From assembly GCA_040757115.1 (NCBI GenBank), contig JBFLYA010000205.1, positions 1 to 6,714 of the forward strand: 6,714 bases of DNA, written 5' to 3'. The notes under the pieces were generated by a model that saw only the letters and a list, made by a program, of their open reading frames with translations, made no database searches and was not told the DNA's origin. Both the position numbers and the translations under genes were made by a program. Numbering within the stretch: position 1 is the stretch's first letter; each line of letters opens with the position of its first letter. Shown one piece after another: positions 89 to 6,714 of the stretch. The DNA is from a bacterium (GTDB lineage: Bacteria > UBA9089 > CG2-30-40-21 > SBAY01).

Positions 89-127
89 CTTTGTGTCCTT
101 TGCGTCTCTGTGTGAGTATTTTTATTA

Positions 128-259
128 GTCTAACGATAGAGTTCAGGTGCGGCGGGGAGAATTACCACAAAAGTTTGATAGCAAGATAAAACTTTGAGAG
201 ACTACAAAACTCTGACCACGGCACAGTCCCCCGCCGTCAACTGCAACGCAGGGTTAGAC
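128..259 (-). other. attC site (integron cassette recombination site), end of HEPN cassette
   Basis: On the printed strand the site runs from GTCTAAC (128-134) to GTTAGAC (253-259), both exact matches to the RYYYAAC and GTTRRRY consensus. Inside them two arms pair: left CAGGTGCGGCGGGG against right CCCCGCCGTCAACTG, with one unpaired T at 237 in the right arm. Known attC sites have an extrahelical T on the recombining bottom strand in this position, so the printed strand is the bottom strand and the cassettes read on minus. The exchange point should lie between 134 and 133. The site begins 25 bp after the stop of the 340-residue gene and precedes the GxxExxY gene by about 40 bp. An inner inverted repeat AAAGTTT/AAACTTT lies in the central part. 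Confidence 0.92.
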
Positions 260-1342
260 AAAAGCTTCTAATGAACCAGTCTCATCAAGAGGTTGATATT
301 GCTCGTCCCCAGCTATCAAATGCACGAACATTACTGATCCCTGTTAAATCCAATTGCATCCCCCAGATATTCCTTCTGGCATCATCTGATAGTTTCCAAA
401 ATTCTCTTTGCTTCATTTCAGTTATAAAGTGCTTTCGGATAGTACAACTCTCAAGGATATGAGAATAGGCAAATGTAGCAAGTTGCTCCATCTGACGAGT
501 TCGGTGTAAGGCAACCATTTTTCTGTCATGTTCAGGATACGACACTACTGCTTCCTTCCAATCATTGAGATGCTCAGTCATACTGCGCAACTCAAATGCT
601 TCTTCTATGATTTGTTTTGTATGCGTACTCGCTTTTGCGAATGTTTGACATCGATGTGTAAACTGTCGCTTAGTTTTGCCGACTTCTGGCAAAATCAGTG
701 CTTCTAATGACCGAACAAATTGATGGATTCGCTCGTCACTATGCTCTTTTTGCAAACCATCCATTAGTACCCTCCAACCCCATTTCAAGCGTTTGAAATC
801 ATTAGGGGAAGAGTCCATTTCATCACGGGACTTTCTCAGTTGAACAGCTTTCTCCAGACGCTCTATGGTTACAGGGGTTCGAGAGTAACCCCTCGTTTGA
901 TAGAAAAACGGAAACTCACTCATTTGGCGAATCTCGGACTTTCCGTCAAAAAAAGATCCACACAGCAGGTTTGCACCCTCGTACTCTATGACCCCAGAAA
1001 GTTGTAATAAGCAGAAAGTTTGCGAAAGCCTTTTTTGGAGTTTCTTATGGTGTTCATCGAGCACCTGTGGATTTGCACTACCTTCACTGACGATCATGAT
1101 GAGATTGGAGTTTTCCAATCGCTCCAAGCGAATTGTCCCGATCCACTCTTTCCAATGAGTATCGATTATTACCGGTAATCGGACACAAATCCATGTTCCA
1201 TCAGATAATCGGTGTTGGTAGTTTTGATCATCCGGAAAATCGGTGTAAACGTTCTCAACTGATAGTAGCGCAAACTTACCTTGTCCTACGAACGAAAGTT
1301 CAGCCATTTCCTAACAACCTTCCATCCTCTAAAGTGGCCTAA
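134..1342 (-). mobile_element. Integron gene cassette C (HEPN-like gene plus attC)
   Basis: Bounded by the expected exchange points in the R' boxes of two flanking attC sites, this is a 1209-bp unit with one gene (285-1307) and its own attC at the 3' end. The gene starts about 36 bp after the upstream exchange point and stops 25 bp before its attC. This compact one-gene layout is the standard cassette form. The boundaries are inferred from the known G/TT cleavage rule, not from an observed excision. Confidence 0.8.
285..1307 (-). CDS. HEPN-like (Apea-type) protein, single-gene cassette cargo
   Basis: This 340-residue protein has no signal peptide or membrane segment and should be cytosolic. 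Residues 1-190 form an alpha/beta region I do not recognise, with a hydrophobic strand-rich part (about 40-125). Residues 190-290 are helical and fit the Apea-like HEPN pattern: IHQFVRSLEALILPE (about 194-208), a basic helix with RCQTFA (219-224), then ELRSMTEHLND with R241-x4-H246. The R-x4-6-H motif is the catalytic signature of HEPN ribonucleases, which act in toxin, abortive-infection and CRISPR systems. The ATG at 1307 has GGAAGG and AGGA upstream; neither is ideally spaced. No promoter is obvious, so it may depend on read-through from upstream cassettes. Function as an RNase is inferred. The family call rests on motif and helix pattern only; a non-catalytic HEPN protein is possible. Confidence 0.7.
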   Translation of the reverse strand: MAELSFVGQGKFALLSVENVYTDFPDDQNYQHRLSDGTWICVRLPVIIDTHWKEWIGTIRLERLENSNLIMIVSEGSANPQVLDEHHKKLQKRLSQTFCLLQLSGVIEYEGANLLCGSFFDGKSEIRQMSEFPFFYQTRGYSRTPVTIERLEKAVQLRKSRDEMDSSPNDFKRLKWGWRVLMDGLQKEHSDERIHQFVRSLEALILPEVGKTKRQFTHRCQTFAKASTHTKQIIEEAFELRSMTEHLNDWKEAVVSYPEHDRKMVALHRTRQMEQLATFAYSHILESCTIRKHFITEMKQREFWKLSDDARRNIWGMQLDLTGISNVRAFDSWGRAISTS

Positions 1343-1467
1343 CGATAGAGCTCACCTGCTGCGGGGCGGATTACCACCAAACTTTGTAAACAAGATAAAA
1401 GATTGAGATACCACAAAACTCTAATTACGGTACAGCCCCCGCAGTCAGGTGCAGCGCCGGGTTAGGC
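1337..1467 (-). other. attC site upstream of the HEPN cassette
   Basis: GCCTAAC (1337-1343) and GTTAGGC (1461-1467) are the outer boxes. The arms CACCTGCTGCGGGG and CCCCGCAGTCAGGTG pair, with one unpaired T at 1445, at the same distance (22 bases) from the right end of the site as in the other two attC copies. Inner TACC and GGTA segments give a second short stem. The exchange point is expected between 1343 and 1342. The arm sequence differs from its relatives (CTG in place of GCG-type steps) but stays paired, as expected for a selected hairpin. Confidence 0.92.
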
Positions 1468-1481
1468 AATATCCCCTGGAC

Positions 1482-1706
1482 TCAAGGTCTCCTCTGCTTG
1501 ATTAGATTTTGCTCTCCTCTGTAGTTCCTATTTACGGTTGTAGTATGTCTCTCGTCCTTCGTTTTGGTTGTGGTTCCTGGTCCCTCGACCGCATACCCTA
1601 GTTCTCTGTGGATGCTGACCGCTATCTGATTTTCTCTGGTTCGTCTCTGCGGGAATGCTGTGAGAAACCTTCCTCCTGGTTGCCGCAACAGCTGTAATTG
1701 GATCAT
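1482..1706 (-). CDS. Hypothetical 74-residue ORF, possible small-cassette cargo
   Basis: The ORF encodes a basic, low-hydrophobicity protein starting MIQLQLLRQPGG, rich in Arg, Thr and Gln, with no family that I recognise and no membrane segment. Its support is positional: the ATG lies 28 bp after the exchange point predicted at the collapsed site 1729-1747, and the stop is 14 bp before the attC at 1337-1467, which is the layout of a cassette gene. There is no convincing Shine-Dalgarno sequence before 1706. The composition is unlike a folded protein, so it may be a non-coding or decayed cassette. Confidence 0.3.
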   Translation of the reverse strand: MIQLQLLRQPGGRFLTAFPQRRTRENQIAVSIHRELGYAVEGPGTTTKTKDERHTTTVNRNYRGEQNLIKQRRP

Positions 1707-1728
1707 AATTTATGCGACGGATTCAAGT

Positions 1729-1747
1729 GCCTAACCTTAGATTAGGC
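1729..1747 (-). other. Collapsed attC-like site
   Basis: The 19-bp sequence GCCTAACCTTAGATTAGGC contains an exact R' box (GTTAGGC on minus, 1729-1735) and a one-mismatch opposing box (ATTAGGC in place of GTTAGGC) with only five bases between them. Its left 13 bases differ from the left end of the 6517-6576 site by a single base (GCC against GTC), and its last six bases equal that site's last six, so it looks like that site without its central hairpin. It lies 57 bp beyond the transposase stop and 28 bp before the 74-codon ORF. Confidence 0.4.
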
Positions 1748-1803
1748 AAAAATTAACCCCTCAATCGTCTCTAATAAAGTAGCCTGTCCCCTTTTCCCTT
1801 TTA

Positions 1804-2235
1804 TTAAAAGTCAAGTTTTAACTGGCGTCTGTCTTCTTCTGCTCTTTGATATTGGATGTATTTCTGTATAGTTTGTGCAGTTACTTTGTCGCCGGTTGCA
1901 CGTACAAAATATCCATCGCTCCACATTTCACCGCCCCAAAGTGACTTACGAAGCTTAGGAAATTCTTCAAATAGTTTTATAGCAGAAATGCTTTTTAGAA
2001 TTTGTACCAACCGTGAAACGCTATAGCGAGGAGGTGCTGAAACAAAAAGATGAACATGGTCTTTCTCTATGCCTTGTTCCAAGATTTCAAATCCATAGCG
2101 TTCGGCTATTCCTTGAAATATTTCTTTAAGTCGTTCTGCTATTTTGTCGTCAAGTACTACTCGTCTATACTTCGGTATCCAGACAAAATGATATTTGAGT
2201 TCATATACAGCGTGACTTGCTCGTCTTAGCTCCAC
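1804..2235 (-). mobile_element. tnpA: IS200/IS605-family TnpA (Y1 HUH transposase) segment, in frame with the upstream gene
   Basis: The last 143 codons match a full-length single-strand transposase. GTG at 2235 is the probable native start (VELRRASHAVYELKYHFVW). Counting from it, the HUH motif is H60-V-H62 within KDHVHLF, and the catalytic tyrosine is Y126 in IQKYIQYQ with Q130 four residues later, the same Tyr-to-Gln spacing as in IS608 TnpA. The length and all key residues are intact. No tnpB follows, so this is an IS200-type element. I cannot place its ends: no clear subterminal hairpin is visible upstream, and downstream there are only a small CTTTT/AAAAG hairpin at 1799-1811 and a GGGGACAGGCTACTTT stretch on minus. 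The insertion seems to have removed the stop codon of the hydrolase-like gene. Confidence 0.85.
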
Positions 2236-4986
2236 ATGAGTTCCAGAAAGTAACGACTCGCTCTGACTGATGACGGTGACGTATGCTCGTGAATTGATGC
2301 CATTGGGAACTTCGCAGGTAAACTTCACTTGATTTTCACCTGGTTCGAGAATAGGCACATCGCCTTGGGGCGTCACTTCGCTGATTAGTTCGCCTTTGGG
2401 ACCATAGAGTTTACAGTCGGACATCGAGTGGAACTCCAGATAACATCCACTTTCGATTTCTAGAGGAAAATACATCGTCTTGTCGCCGATGGTGACGGCA
2501 GGATTGCAAAGTTTTACATTGACCAGAGGTAACGCCCGGATTGAGCTTAGATAGCAGGTGACCGTTTTGTTAGGCGGAAGGTTGTTGTACCAAAGGCTTA
2601 GGGATTCCATCTGACTGTAGTTTACGGATTCGCGGTAGATTGAATAAATGCTACCGTAAGGCCACGAGTAGTCGGCATAGCGTTCTCCCTCCGGTTCGAT
2701 TAGTTCAAAATAACGCCAACCTGTAAAATCGACTATCACGTAATGCTCACCAATCCCACTAACGAGATGTTCGGGACTTCTCACCTGGAAATTCAAAACT
2801 TCTCCCTGACCATCGCCGTGGATCCAAACTCCCATGCCCTGTTGCTGGCTGAGGTCTAACGGTGGCGAAAACTTCTTGCCCATTTTAGTCCATGTGCCTT
2901 GTCGATTTTCCAGATTACTTGACGCGGTATAGCGTCCACTTATTTGTCCAAACTTCACTTTCACTGACGAAGGTTGTAGTTCTGCGGTAATTCCCGATGC
3001 TGTATCTTGTTCTGAAAAATCACCAACATCGGTGAAGTCCGTTAGTATCGCATTTTCTGGGTCATCATACGGTCCTGCCGACATCAGTGATTCGATGCGC
3101 AGTTGCACCGGTTGTTCGCCAAACTTATTGTGCGTTTTCCAAACGTTGCTCCATCCGTCGATGCCCTCCACTTTGTGTTTGACATACTGAATCGGCCTCA
3201 ACTTCCATTCTCCGTCGTCGCTTTGTATTAATTTGAACTCATCGCCGGGAACTCTCAACTTTGCTTTGACAGATTCAGGAAAATAATTCGCGTGGCGCAG
3301 ATTTTCATATCTTTTCATGATGGCGGCTAATCTTGGCAAGGCGGGAATATTGGAGACATTATCGGGGTTAATTCCCATGATGGCTAAACCTGTATCAGTG
3401 CTGAGACATTTGCCGCACAGATATTCTATATCATCAGCGAAGGTCGGTTCACCCTGCTGATTAGACCAAGTTTTAAACGCCCACCACCCAAGTTGCCCTG
3501 GTAAAAACATGCGGCGGCATTCTTCGTTGGCTTCGCAGTGGATGTCGATGAACTTTTTGTGGCTGCGCGTCGGATGGTCCCAAGCTCCCAGACGAGAACG
3601 GACATACCAGAGGTGATGGTGGAACGTGCTCATCTCCATAGCCGCCGGTCTTTTCAAATGTTTCCAAATCTCAAATACGTACTTCGACCCGTAGTGCCAG
3701 CCATTTTCCCAACCACCCAAGACATCCTCTCCATCCAGAGCATCCAGATACATCATGTCAAATCCACCTTCATTGAAGGCTTCCGCCGTCTTGGCCGCCA
3801 CTTCGGAAAGAAGCGTCGAATCTCCATCTGGCGCAAATAGACCGAAGCATTCTTTTAGATGATGTACCTTTGCGCCTTTATTATGGGGCGAGGGTTTCGT
3901 ACCACAAGCGCCGCGTTGGCAACCGGTGAAAGCGTAAGAAGACTCTTTGGAAACGCCGCTGTAGGTAATGAGTTCGTCGTTTATCTGAAGCGTCACGCTG
4001 TTGCGCACGAAAAATCCCGTGATAGCGGACATATCCTGCGTCGACTCGACTACTGGCACTTGGTCTGAATCCGCCGTCAAGGATTCCGCCAAAGTAAATG
4101 TCGCATCCTTCGCCAGCCGTGGGTCGGGCACAGGTGTCACCCAGGGACAGCTTTTGTCGATAAAAAACGCATACGTATGCAAACCAGCCATAATTCCCGC
4201 TTCATGTAGCTTATCTGTCACGGCTCTGAGACTGGCAAGTCCGCTCGGGTAAGTCTCTGGATTGGGTCGGCAGTCTCCGAATCGGAATGATTTGCCTCCG
4301 TGAAAATCGATTTGATTGATTCCGAGACTTTGTGCCAATTGAATCCAATCGTCCACCTTCTCTTCTGAAAGATTACCGAAGTTGAACAGGTATGAGCCTT
4401 TGCTGATTTCAGCGTCCAACGCCCACGGCCCGCCTACGGGCGACTGCGGCAACTCTTCGGCGGCGCTAACTACCTCCTGCATGACCCGACGGAGTTCGCT
4501 CTGAGGACATCCGATTATCGCAACTTTTGCTCCAGCAAAACCAAATTTCGGGTAGCACATCGCCCTTAGACGACTATTCGCACGAGGCAATTCATGAACA
4601 TTGGTTTGCAGATTCAACGCAAGCGTGCAACCGGCGAACGGTTCTTCTGGAATTCCTTGAAGTGTGAGCGGAAGGTCAACAAATGTCAACTCTTCAACCT
4701 GTTCACCTGTCACAGATAAAACCTCCAGAACGAAATAGTGTTCCTTCGCCGTTACTCCTATCACAACGCTGACTTTCGATTCACCGAAGCGAACAGTTAT
4801 TTTCCCGGCAGCGTATGATGCCTCAGAAGCATTGAATTCCTTATTCTCTTTCTTCACCCGTGCGAACGATGACTTAGGCTCTTGGACGCAATAATCTGTG
4901 TTAGTCCGGTTGTCGATGAAATGAAGATTAGTGCCATCTGACCCGATAACGTATCGGGCGTACTTATTCTCGATTGAGATAGTCAT
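1804..4986 (-). CDS. Glycoside-hydrolase-like protein fused in frame to IS200/IS605 TnpA
   Basis: This 1060-residue product starts at MTISIENKY; the ATG at 4986 follows a strong AGGAGG (4991-4996 region). An upstream in-frame ATG at 5139 would add 51 residues and has weaker AAGG support. No signal peptide is seen, so it should be cytosolic. Residues 1-180 are beta-rich, like the front sandwich of many hydrolases. Residues about 185-560 look like a TIM barrel: GGPWALDAEISKG (185-197), INQIDFHGG, AGIMAGLHTY, and FDMMYLDALDG (409-419) with D415 and D418 as candidate catalytic acids, then WDHPTRSHKKFIDIH (469-483). Residues about 700-810 and 820-910 look like jelly-roll sandwich modules. From about 918 the frame continues into a complete TnpA. 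I recall similar proteins from Poribacteria-like genomes; no substrate can be named. Own promoter at 5177-5205. Large for cassette cargo. Confidence 0.75.
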   Translation of the reverse strand: MTISIENKYARYVIGSDGTNLHFIDNRTNTDYCVQEPKSSFARVKKENKEFNASEASYAAGKITVRFGESKVSVVIGVTAKEHYFVLEVLSVTGEQVEELTFVDLPLTLQGIPEEPFAGCTLALNLQTNVHELPRANSRLRAMCYPKFGFAGAKVAIIGCPQSELRRVMQEVVSAAEELPQSPVGGPWALDAEISKGSYLFNFGNLSEEKVDDWIQLAQSLGINQIDFHGGKSFRFGDCRPNPETYPSGLASLRAVTDKLHEAGIMAGLHTYAFFIDKSCPWVTPVPDPRLAKDATFTLAESLTADSDQVPVVESTQDMSAITGFFVRNSVTLQINDELITYSGVSKESSYAFTGCQRGACGTKPSPHNKGAKVHHLKECFGLFAPDGDSTLLSEVAAKTAEAFNEGGFDMMYLDALDGEDVLGGWENGWHYGSKYVFEIWKHLKRPAAMEMSTFHHHLWYVRSRLGAWDHPTRSHKKFIDIHCEANEECRRMFLPGQLGWWAFKTWSNQQGEPTFADDIEYLCGKCLSTDTGLAIMGINPDNVSNIPALPRLAAIMKRYENLRHANYFPESVKAKLRVPGDEFKLIQSDDGEWKLRPIQYVKHKVEGIDGWSNVWKTHNKFGEQPVQLRIESLMSAGPYDDPENAILTDFTDVGDFSEQDTASGITAELQPSSVKVKFGQISGRYTASSNLENRQGTWTKMGKKFSPPLDLSQQQGMGVWIHGDGQGEVLNFQVRSPEHLVSGIGEHYVIVDFTGWRYFELIEPEGERYADYSWPYGSIYSIYRESVNYSQMESLSLWYNNLPPNKTVTCYLSSIRALPLVNVKLCNPAVTIGDKTMYFPLEIESGCYLEFHSMSDCKLYGPKGELISEVTPQGDVPILEPGENQVKFTCEVPNGINSRAYVTVISQSESLLSGTHVELRRASHAVYELKYHFVWIPKYRRVVLDDKIAERLKEIFQGIAERYGFEILEQGIEKDHVHLFVSAPPRYSVSRLVQILKSISAIKLFEEFPKLRKSLWGGEMWSDGYFVRATGDKVTAQTIQKYIQYQRAEEDRRQLKLDF

Positions 4987-5176
4987 GATTCCCTCCTCTT
5001 CCCTACCGAGCCATTTTGTGAAGTAATTCGGAAGTCTAAAATGAAAACTCAGTTTCTGGGTTTCAACTGTAATTCTCCAGATATTCCTTAAAAGCTTCGC
5101 CCAATTTTTGAACTGATAGGAAATTACTTTTTGGTGCATTTTGGATGTTACCTTCAGTTTTGCCCGTTATGGGAAT

Positions 5177-5205
5177 ATTTTACCAAAATCTTTCCCTATG
5201 GTCAA
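5177..5205 (-). promoter_or_regulatory. Sigma70-type promoter for the hydrolase-like gene
   Basis: On minus, TTGACC (5205-5200) and TAAAAT (5182-5177) are separated by exactly 17 bases. Transcription should begin near 5170, giving a leader of roughly 185 nt to the ATG at 4986, or about 30 nt to the alternative ATG at 5139. It sits in an AT-rich stretch and is the best promoter match I found in the window. It shows that the big gene does not depend on read-through from the integron promoter. Confidence 0.7.
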
Positions 5206-5466
5206 CAAAAATTTTTAACTGATCACCAAAAAAAGATCAAAAATTAGGTTCAAAAATAAGTTTGATGAGACAAAAACGAGAAAGTTTCATTTTAGCCATC
5301 AGATTTTGGACACACTTATCCTGCATGGTATGCTGAGGGGAGGAAAGTAGGATTACAAAACAGGTGAGAATTTAGGAAGGTTATCATCCACCAGAGGCAT
5401 TTGCCATCATAAAACCACTTCTTAGGTTTTGGCATGGTCTTCAGGATTTCCTCAATCTCTTCTTCT

Positions 5467-5613
5467 TTATAGACAATTTAATGCTATCCCTGCAAGAGCC
5501 ATTTCTCTGGCCAGGCATTGTTCGTAAGTAGATTCAAGTAAACCTGGGTCAAGAGCTCGATGCACCTCTATAGCACATCCAATAATTTTATTTGATAATG
5601 CATCAAATTTCAC
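5467..5613 (-). pseudogene. GxxExxY family protein, truncated
   Basis: GTG at 5613, six bases after AAAGG, opens a 48-codon frame starting [20 protein letters not shown] and continuing [28 protein letters not shown] before TAA. This is the N-terminal third of a GxxExxY protein, with the motif GLLESTY intact and the usual Gly before Pro replaced by Asp. The catalytic-like core of the family (the DxxV...ELK-type segment) is absent. In the next frame the sequence stays open for 51 more codons, to 5316, but that peptide ([20 protein letters not shown] onward) does not resemble the missing part. The gene is therefore deleted rather than simply frameshifted. It begins 36 bp after the exchange point of the attC at 5644-5775, so it is probably the original cargo of this cassette. 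Confidence 0.75.
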
Positions 5614-5643
5614 TTCGTGCCTTTCGTGGTTTAATCTCTTTTA

Positions 5644-5775
5644 GTCTAACGATAGAGTTCAGCGGCGGCGGGGAGGATTGCCACTAAACTTTGTAACCAC
5701 GATTACCTATTGAAATACTACAAAACTTTCAATCACGGCACAGCCCCCGCCGTCCGCTGCAACGATTTGTTAGGC
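5644..5775 (-). other. attC site, end of the toxin-antitoxin cassette
   Basis: GTCTAAC (5644-5650) and GTTAGGC (5769-5775) flank arms CAGCGGCGGCGGGG and CCCCGCCGTCCGCTG, with one unpaired T at 5753, again 22 bases from the right end of the site. Inner TGCC and GGCA segments pair where the 1337-1467 site has TACC and GGTA, a compensatory change. The site follows the antitoxin stop by 131 bp and precedes the truncated GxxExxY gene by 30 bp. Its exchange point is expected between 5650 and 5649. Confidence 0.92.
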
Positions 5776-5906: not shown

Positions 5907-6146
5907 TCAAGCATGAACCATTATACCAGCTTTTGTCCTTGTGTGCCTCTTAGCAAAAGTTGGAGAATAGGCTTCAATTCTGCGCATAGCTTGCCTATCA
6001 TAGACTCTTTCATCACAATCTGGACACACATAGAACTCTAACGATGGAACTGTATAGGATCGCCCTTGATACTTTTCAGTCCAGTCCTGCTTTACCTTTT
6101 TGATTTTATTACTACCGCAAGATGGACATATTGCAATTTTTATCAT
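5907..6146 (-). CDS. YgiT-type zinc-finger protein, MqsA-like antitoxin
   Basis: The 79-residue protein carries CPSC at 7-10 and CPDC at 41-44, the two halves of a zinc ribbon, with a hydrophobic stretch LEFYVCP between them. This is the N-terminal domain of MqsA/YgiT antitoxins. The C-terminal HTH of full MqsA (about 131 residues) is missing; the tail is basic (residues 55-72, with several Arg and Lys), so DNA binding, if any, would be through another route. Short YgiT-type proteins of this size are regular partners of DUF4258 toxins. The ATG at 6146 is preceded by AAGGAG, and only 15 bases separate it from the stop of the upstream gene, so the two are co-transcribed and translationally close. 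It is expected to bind and block the toxin in the cytosol. Confidence 0.85.
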   Translation of the reverse strand: MIKIAICPSCGSNKIKKVKQDWTEKYQGRSYTVPSLEFYVCPDCDERVYDRQAMRRIEAYSPTFAKRHTRTKAGIMVHA

Positions 6147-6161
6147 TGTTCTTATCTCCTT

Positions 6162-6473
6162 TCAAAGTGCTTTCTTGGAAGAAATGAGGAAGTAATAAGT
6201 TTCTTCTCCATCTTCACGAACGAATTTACCCTTAGAATAGATTGCCAATCCATCTAAGTTCGTGCTTTGAATGACATAAAGATATTCTCTGGAGTGTTTA
6301 CGAAACGGACTCTCTGAGCGAATCGTCTTGTAAATAGCAACAGCATTGAGAATTGACTCAGCCACATCAAGTTCTCTAAAACAATCTGCCTCCATTTCCA
6401 AGCGTGCCTTTTCGCTAAAGGCATATCGCCTCTCAAGAATTGCTCGTTTGATTCGTACTAAAACATTATTCAT
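6162..6473 (-). CDS. DUF4258 / MqsR-like toxin
   Basis: The 103-residue protein is basic at the N-terminus (VRIKRAILERRY), followed by FSEKARLEMEAD (19-30), a helix that matches the F-S-x-H/K-A-x-x-x-M segment of DUF4258 proteins, then LDVAESILNAVAIYK (35-49), a strand region EYLYVIQS and the C-terminal strand ETYYFLISSKK. DUF4258 proteins share the small RelE/MqsR-like fold, and MqsR is an mRNA interferase; ribonuclease activity here is inferred. The toxin-first order and the zinc-ribbon partner immediately downstream are those of mqsRA. The ATG at 6473 has only a weak purine-rich AAGAGAAAA upstream, which may keep toxin output low. Another internal reading frame at this locus is only a shadow. 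Confidence 0.8.
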   Translation of the reverse strand: MNNVLVRIKRAILERRYAFSEKARLEMEADCFRELDVAESILNAVAIYKTIRSESPFRKHSREYLYVIQSTNLDGLAIYSKGKFVREDGEETYYFLISSKKAL

Positions 6474-6528
6474 TGTTTGTTTTTCTCTTATTTCACTTTC
6501 AATGCAACAGTAAGTAGTCTAACCTTAG

Positions 6529-6549
6529 ATTATACTGCCTATTGGCAGT
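6529..6549 (-). promoter_or_regulatory. Possible -10 box and operator-like palindrome for the TA pair
   Basis: On minus, a consensus TATAAT (6534-6529) is immediately preceded by the perfect palindrome ACTGCCAATAGGCAGT (6549-6534). A start near 6522 would give a leader of about 49 nt. The hexamer 17 bases upstream (AATATA) is not a good -35 box. TA operons are commonly autoregulated through palindromes overlapping their promoters, so this fits, but the same palindrome is the core of the attC-like hairpin. Confidence 0.3.
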
Positions 6550-6569
6550 TTTATATTACTGCATTATAA
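6530..6569. repeat. 40-bp imperfect palindromic repeat, copy 1
   Basis: It runs from TTATACTGCC to GCATTATAA and matches the copy at 6664-6704 except for three substitutions and one indel. The termini are inverted (TTATA-x-TGC against GCA-x-TATAA). It lies exactly between the outer boxes of the attC-like site, offset from the left box by six bases and touching the right box. Confidence 0.75.
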
Positions 6570-6663
6570 GTTAGGCTATTTATAGAATAGCATAAATAAA
6601 ATATTCTGTCAAGAAAAATTTTAATATCAAAATTAGAAAATACTGAAAAATAACATCCTGGTA

Positions 6664-6704
6664 TTATACTGCCTATTAGCGGTTTTTATTTTACTGCATT
6701 ATAA
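6664..6704. repeat. 41-bp imperfect palindromic repeat, copy 2
   Basis: This second copy has the same termini as copy 1, but its inner hairpin is weakened (ACTGCC-TATT-AGCGGT, two changes from a perfect stem). Neither flank has the RYYYAAC/GTTRRRY boxes: the left flank is CATCCTGGTA and the right flank is a T-rich run. It could be a decayed attC or an independent small hairpin element. Confidence 0.75.
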
Positions 6705-6714
6705 ATTTTTTTCT

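Follow-up and report, generated by a model that had tools for sequence, protein, structure and literature searches.

How do a gene for a glycosidase-type enzyme and a transposase gene come to share one reading frame, and is the combined product an accident or a protein under selection? Both questions are raised by a 6,714-nucleotide stretch of bacterial DNA (referred to here as the window), in which a single uninterrupted frame runs on the minus strand from ATG 4986 to TAA 1806-1804 over 1060 codons. An alternative start lies at ATG 5139, but it is ATG 4986 that is backed by homology. The ORF (1804-4986) unites, in frame, a full GH36/GH101-like protein and a full-length transposase TnpA of the IS200/IS605 type:

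2236..4986, minus strand: upstream gene, 917 codons, predicted GH36/GH101-like glycoside hydrolase (homologues, fold search, weak GH36 profile match)
1804..2235, minus strand: tnpA, 143 aa, GTG start 2235-2233, stop TAA 1806-1804, HuH (DHVH) and Tyr/Gln (YIQYQ) intact
2233..2241, minus strand: fusion junction ACT-CAT-GTG, from the alignment to locus L018, which ends ...EGT*

The Junction and the Upstream Protein

The last host-like codon is ACT (2241-2239), CAT (2238-2236) stands where the stop codon would be and is followed directly by the GTG of tnpA. The window thus reads ...SLLSGT-H-[GTG]ELRR as compared to ...PLVEEGT* at the end of the nearest intact homologue, and the peptide SESLLSGTHVELRR spans the border between enzyme and TnpA. 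The open frame is no chance read-through and, judged from the alignments, nearly nothing is missing from either protein at the junction.

The upstream part is a conserved protein of about 915 aa. A genome scan yielded 23 related loci from Poribacteria, Verrucomicrobia, Planctomycetota, Lentisphaerae, Armatimonadetes, Latescibacterota and others, with top identities of 75-83%. The window's ...RAYVTVISQSESLLSGT aligns with ...RANVTVITQGEPLVEEGT* of Poribacteria locus L018, which stops exactly there, and the remaining relatives of short architecture stop no more than about 25 residues from the end point of L018. An earlier sequence-only reading had described a stop-free frame leading from a hydrolase-like protein into a full TnpA, had taken the upstream protein to reach its natural end before the GTG with the junction at the stop codon, and had proposed an alignment of homologues as a check; all of this is borne out. 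Loci L022, L025, L026, L029, L033 and L034 carry C-terminal extensions of about 320-520 aa that begin at the point where TnpA begins in the window. None of these extensions is a TnpA, and the four tested lack a Pfam match.

TnpA was found at none of the sampled loci for homologues of the host protein, neither was a second fusion detected when host homologues were inspected in the contigs of the genome and in relatives, and TnpA in relatives and viral contigs. Viral contigs contained no relative of the host protein, and a plasmid search with it returned only two matches, both distant and from Embleya.

According to the AlphaFold model, the host part is largely confident and multi-domain, with a last strand that ends at residue 908 (numbering of the 1060-aa protein). 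Foldseek retrieved GH101 and GH36 glycosidases (E 2e-13 to 2e-10, identity 8-11%), and a profile search gave a weak match to alpha-galactosidases. The model features a TIM barrel flanked by beta-sandwich domains, while the global TM-score is modest (0.25-0.3 on query length). The designation as hydrolase-like in the sequence-only reading was therefore right. The protein shares the predicted fold and the weak alpha-galactosidase profile match with GH36/GH101 glycosidases (clan GH-D and relatives), but it is only 8-11% identical to them and not filed in a GH family.

A Complete Transposase without the Ends of Its Element

Within the C-terminal 143 aa, residues 978-1098 (numbered in the longer form starting at ATG 5139) match Y1_Tnp over profile positions 2-121 of 121 (E 5e-43); the score against the NCBIfam model NF033573 for IS200/IS605 transposases is 158 bits (cut-off 55). 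TnpA proteins of solved structure, i.e., 2ec2 (E 7e-34), 2f4f, 2xm3 and 2vhg from ISHp608, align end to end from residue 1. Met1 of the solved archaeal TnpAs falls on the window's GTG, and 2235-2233 is therefore the native start of the 143-aa TnpA. The motifs DHVH, W-S and Y-I-Q-Y-Q are present and closely resemble the subclass 1.1 signature of TnpA (PMC6006769); the HUH, Tyr and Gln residues had already been recognized as intact from the letters alone. The TnpA part was poorly modelled structurally due to lack of an alignment, and no claim is built on that model.

TnpA enzymes work on subterminal hairpins of about 20-25 nt at both ends of the element (PMC6006769). In the window, no stem of at least 6 bp occurs within 160 nt upstream of tnpA or between the tnpA stop and an attI remnant downstream of it (see below). 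DNA folding z-scores were +1.0 for the upstream and +0.3 for the downstream flank, whereas the flanks of three plasmid relatives scored between -1.7 and -4.2. In the TnpA relative L042 (58% identity), hairpins CTCCGTTCTTGAACGGAG and CCCCGCTCTTGAGCGGGG are located upstream of tnpA and just past its stop, respectively. A left-end hairpin was found in relatives L042, L043, L044, L140 and L141 and a right-end hairpin in L042, L044, L140, L141 and L142, with the hairpins of the plasmid copies L140-L142 being partly bulged. The palindrome TGCCTAATCTAAGGTTAGGCA was considered as an IS right-end hairpin and rejected, as one half is the attI remnant and the other the cassette 3 core; the sole downstream stem is part of the integron core. 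Behind tnpA, the motif AAAAGGGGACAGGCTACTTT (window 1771-1805) recurs on contig C20 (L115:6040-6073) and is possibly a REP-like half site. Motifs of this kind flank RAYT-like genes.

The genome contains no second copy of the element, for which a search had been suggested as a way to define the IS ends, and its other Y1_Tnp matches are distant. "Complete" hence applies to the transposase as a protein, but not to the element. Only about nine codons lie between the point where the conserved host protein ends and the start of tnpA. This is too short for a left end with a hairpin, and with both IS ends missing it points at deletion or rearrangement and not at insertion alone. The simple insertion of an IS at the stop codon that was first envisaged is thus not sustained.

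The window's TnpA shares the full-length HuH/Y1 domain, the catalytic motifs and the native start with IS200/IS605 TnpA of subclass 1.1 (IS608, ISDra2, Sulfolobus TnpA 2f4f/2ec2), but differs in lacking end hairpins, in being the C-terminal part of another protein and in occurring as a single copy. A few unexpectedly long TnpA-Y1 proteins have been noted in each subclass and ascribed to gene fusions or annotation errors (PMC6006769). While those were discarded from analysis, the junction in the window is resolved on homologues and placed in an integron.

The Fusion Gene Resides in an Integron Cassette Array

What had been overlooked in the sequence-only reading is that the window represents an array of integron cassettes. 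Three repeats of about 133 bp follow the attC plan, with RYYYAAC...GTTRRRY cores and a long foldback; a single base stays unpaired in the L'' arm (GCACCTGACTGC versus GCAGCAGGTG), R''/R' cores are present and all three sites are oriented along the gene direction. The right edge (6518-6714) recurs beside intI genes or fragments on contigs C118, C30 and C116 and therefore represents the attI/leader region. Its last part (6588-6714) matches the opening 127 bp of C63 without a difference; this contig carries intI in the opposite direction. On the minus strand, the order is attI, cassette 1, attC, cassette 2, attI remnant, cassette 3, attC, cassette 4, attC:

6518..6714, minus strand: attI/leader region (recurrence beside intI, overlap with C63)
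5907-6473: cargo of cassette 1, a 103-aa ORF and a YgiT/MqsA-type zinc-finger ORF
5643..5775, minus strand: attC ending cassette 1 and opening cassette 2 (repeat and foldback)
5534..5642, minus strand: start of cassette 2, a truncated GxxExxY-type gene remnant, assigned by eye (5534-5620 87% identical to C212)
5102..5477, minus strand: diverged copy (71%) of the genome's own lexA/glycosyltransferase intergenic region on C130, with promoter-like site
1731..1745, minus strand: attI remnant TAATCTAAG (1744-1736) joined to the cassette core GTTAGGC (1735-1729), from attI comparison
1336..1735, minus strand: cassette 3, a 74-aa ORF (1706-1482) and attC (1466-1336)
127..258, minus strand: attC repeat closing cassette 4, which carries a 340-aa ORF (1307-285)

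The two proteins of cassette 1 are likely a toxin-antitoxin pair. In cassette 2, the GxxExxY remnant is followed by the lexA/glycosyltransferase spacer copy and the fusion gene; the spacer copy (window 5102-5477 versus L117:8542-8927) retains a remnant of the glycosyltransferase gene, namely its start. The 340-aa protein of cassette 4 (window 285-1307) was matched by nothing in Pfam, NCBIfam, PHROGs or PADLOC, and searches of Rfam and PADLOC in general yielded nothing.

Cassette 2 ends in a 9-nt attI remnant in place of attC, about 60 nt past the tnpA stop. Across the analysed contigs (853 kb of strand sequence), the 9-mer TAATCTAAG has 13 occurrences, ten of them immediately ahead of GTT in attI-like sites. 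Copies of cassette 3 on C282 and C93 (92-95% identical) begin exactly at 1735, and with the attI-end 9-mer directly before this position it follows that cassette 2 closes with a partial attI. Cassettes of such a delta-attI type have been described in class 1 and class 2 integrons, where IntI1 can excise and insert them (PMC12901181). The attC-ORF-(partial attI) layout and a similar remnant length before GTTRRRY are shared; the window's cassette differs by its location in a chromosomal integron of an environmental phylum and its composite cargo of about 3.9 kb. Contig C98 contains a second attI remnant inside an array (L114:1788-1816). Together with this remnant, truncated attI copies of varying lengths were noted in or beside arrays on C326, C229, C234 and C39, possibly representing more cassettes of the delta-attI type.

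The genome is rich in integrons: it has at least 43 long attC-like sites and several copies of the attI/leader region, and intI occurs many times, whole or in fragments. Two of the several IntI genes exceed the family cut-off. The intI gene on C63 (L105:207-1330), which adjoins the array, is split by an insert of about 165 bp, while C39 has a whole intI. Sites of the same attC type were present in 10 of the 21 genomes of the phylum that were searched, the own genome included, and the 43 matches in the sole other genome of the genus support correct binning. A search of the literature on integrons in Poribacteria and on IS605 fusions found nothing direct.

Provenance and Expression of the Fused Genes

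Similarity to Poribacteria on the DNA level sets in about 15 nt ahead of the ATG and is limited to the gene. GC content is 48.7% for the host part, 38.9% for tnpA and about 38% over 426 kb of the own genome, and GC3 amounts to 51% in the host part versus 27% in tnpA. The sole other genome of the genus lacks the host gene. On these grounds the enzyme gene is probably foreign and Poribacteria-like, and the GC contents suggest separate origins of the enzyme part and tnpA.

ATG 4986 is preceded by GAGGAGGGAATC and has a strong Shine-Dalgarno sequence; the GTG of tnpA has a poor ribosome site. The lexA/glycosyltransferase spacer copy, which reproduces a native promoter region, contains a conserved extended -10 promoter-like site (TTGACC-17-TAAAAT, 5205-5177), although such sites also arise by chance. 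Production of either TnpA from its own GTG or a chimera had been offered as alternatives. With no stop between the two parts, full translation of the host gene must yield the chimera and TnpA from its own GTG could only be additional. If the gene is expressed, the chimera would thus be the default product.

How the Fusion May Have Arisen

We consider it most likely, at a probability of roughly two in three, that the fusion was generated in frame by rearrangement and left behind a stranded, immobile TnpA, recent and unselected, in an unusual integron cassette. A foreign, Poribacteria-like glycosidase-type gene and an IS200/IS605 tnpA would have been joined with loss of the host stop codon, the left end of the IS and the 5' flank of tnpA on one side, and of the right end and most of the attI site on the other. 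In the simplest history, an IS inserted near the 3' end of the host gene and then lost its left end and the leader of tnpA, together with the host stop codon, to a deletion; the same picture would result if the two genes had been joined directly and illegitimately, the left end not included. No intermediate, i.e., host gene with stop codon plus whole IS, was found, and it is for this reason that we infer the deletion as cause. Expression, enzyme activity and lack of function are likewise presumed. The fusion is known from a single metagenome contig. Only rarely would random deletion preserve two coding parts nearly to the codon, as is the case here, and this speaks against deletion; the undamaged TnpA frame would also fit selection for function.

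It is conceivable, albeit unlikely, that TnpA was recruited as a C-terminal domain for binding or nicking single-stranded DNA and that the chimera is selected. The almost seamless junction and the intact TnpA motifs would agree with such domestication, as would the several family members extended by about 320-520 aa at the same point, which indicate that the position tolerates added domains. Nevertheless, the tested extensions are neither TnpA nor matched by Pfam, the composition of tnpA is unlike that of the host part and, to our knowledge, glycosidases and transposases have no biological connection. An old domestication with TnpA-bearing homologues, named beforehand as the finding that would overturn an insertion, is not met with in the sampled loci. 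A much more specific proposal, a selected cytosolic glycosidase with a working Y1 nickase tail for single-stranded DNA that is spread as integron cargo and acts in trans on folded single strands, attC hairpins among them, appears barely credible to us. We also regard it as rather improbable that the junction or the absence of a stop codon stems from a chimeric assembly or a consensus error. The metagenome-assembled genome comprises 462 contigs with many near-identical integron repeats, but the sequence around the junction is unique and lies apart from these repeats, the frame is kept on both sides across hundreds of codons, and the contig ends at a repeat with a clean 127-bp overlap to C63, as is seen when assemblers break at repeats. 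It is very improbable that an IS200/IS605 element whose ends are unusual is still live here, having inserted 3' of TTAC (2253-2250) within the tail of the host gene, with TnpA translation coupled to that gene. TTAC is the known target of IS608 and the tetranucleotide stands 14 nt before the GTG, but it is common by chance, neither flank folds back, the 3' flank runs into the attI remnant about 60 nt past the stop and the genome holds no second copy.

Under the preferred reading of a stranded TnpA joined by rearrangement, the product is cargo of cassette 2, an unusual cassette of the delta-attI type in a chromosomal integron array. If it is transcribed, ribosomes starting at the host ATG would yield an enzyme-TnpA chimera of about 117 kDa, the enzyme part of which is expected to fold normally with TnpA as an appended domain. 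Having lost its own hairpin ends, the element would no longer transpose as an IS, but may still be mobilized by IntI as cassette cargo.

Taken as a mechanism, the fusion is probably an uncommon accident of rearrangement, and neither a working mobile element nor a new system. The locus constitutes a well-resolved case in which, once both ends of the element were gone, a transposase ORF became fused near codon-exactly to a host enzyme, and it presents a delta-attI-type cassette outside class 1 and class 2 integrons, in an array that holds a 3-kb foreign gene in an integron-rich genome. A fusion of this kind is a plausible first step of transposase domestication.
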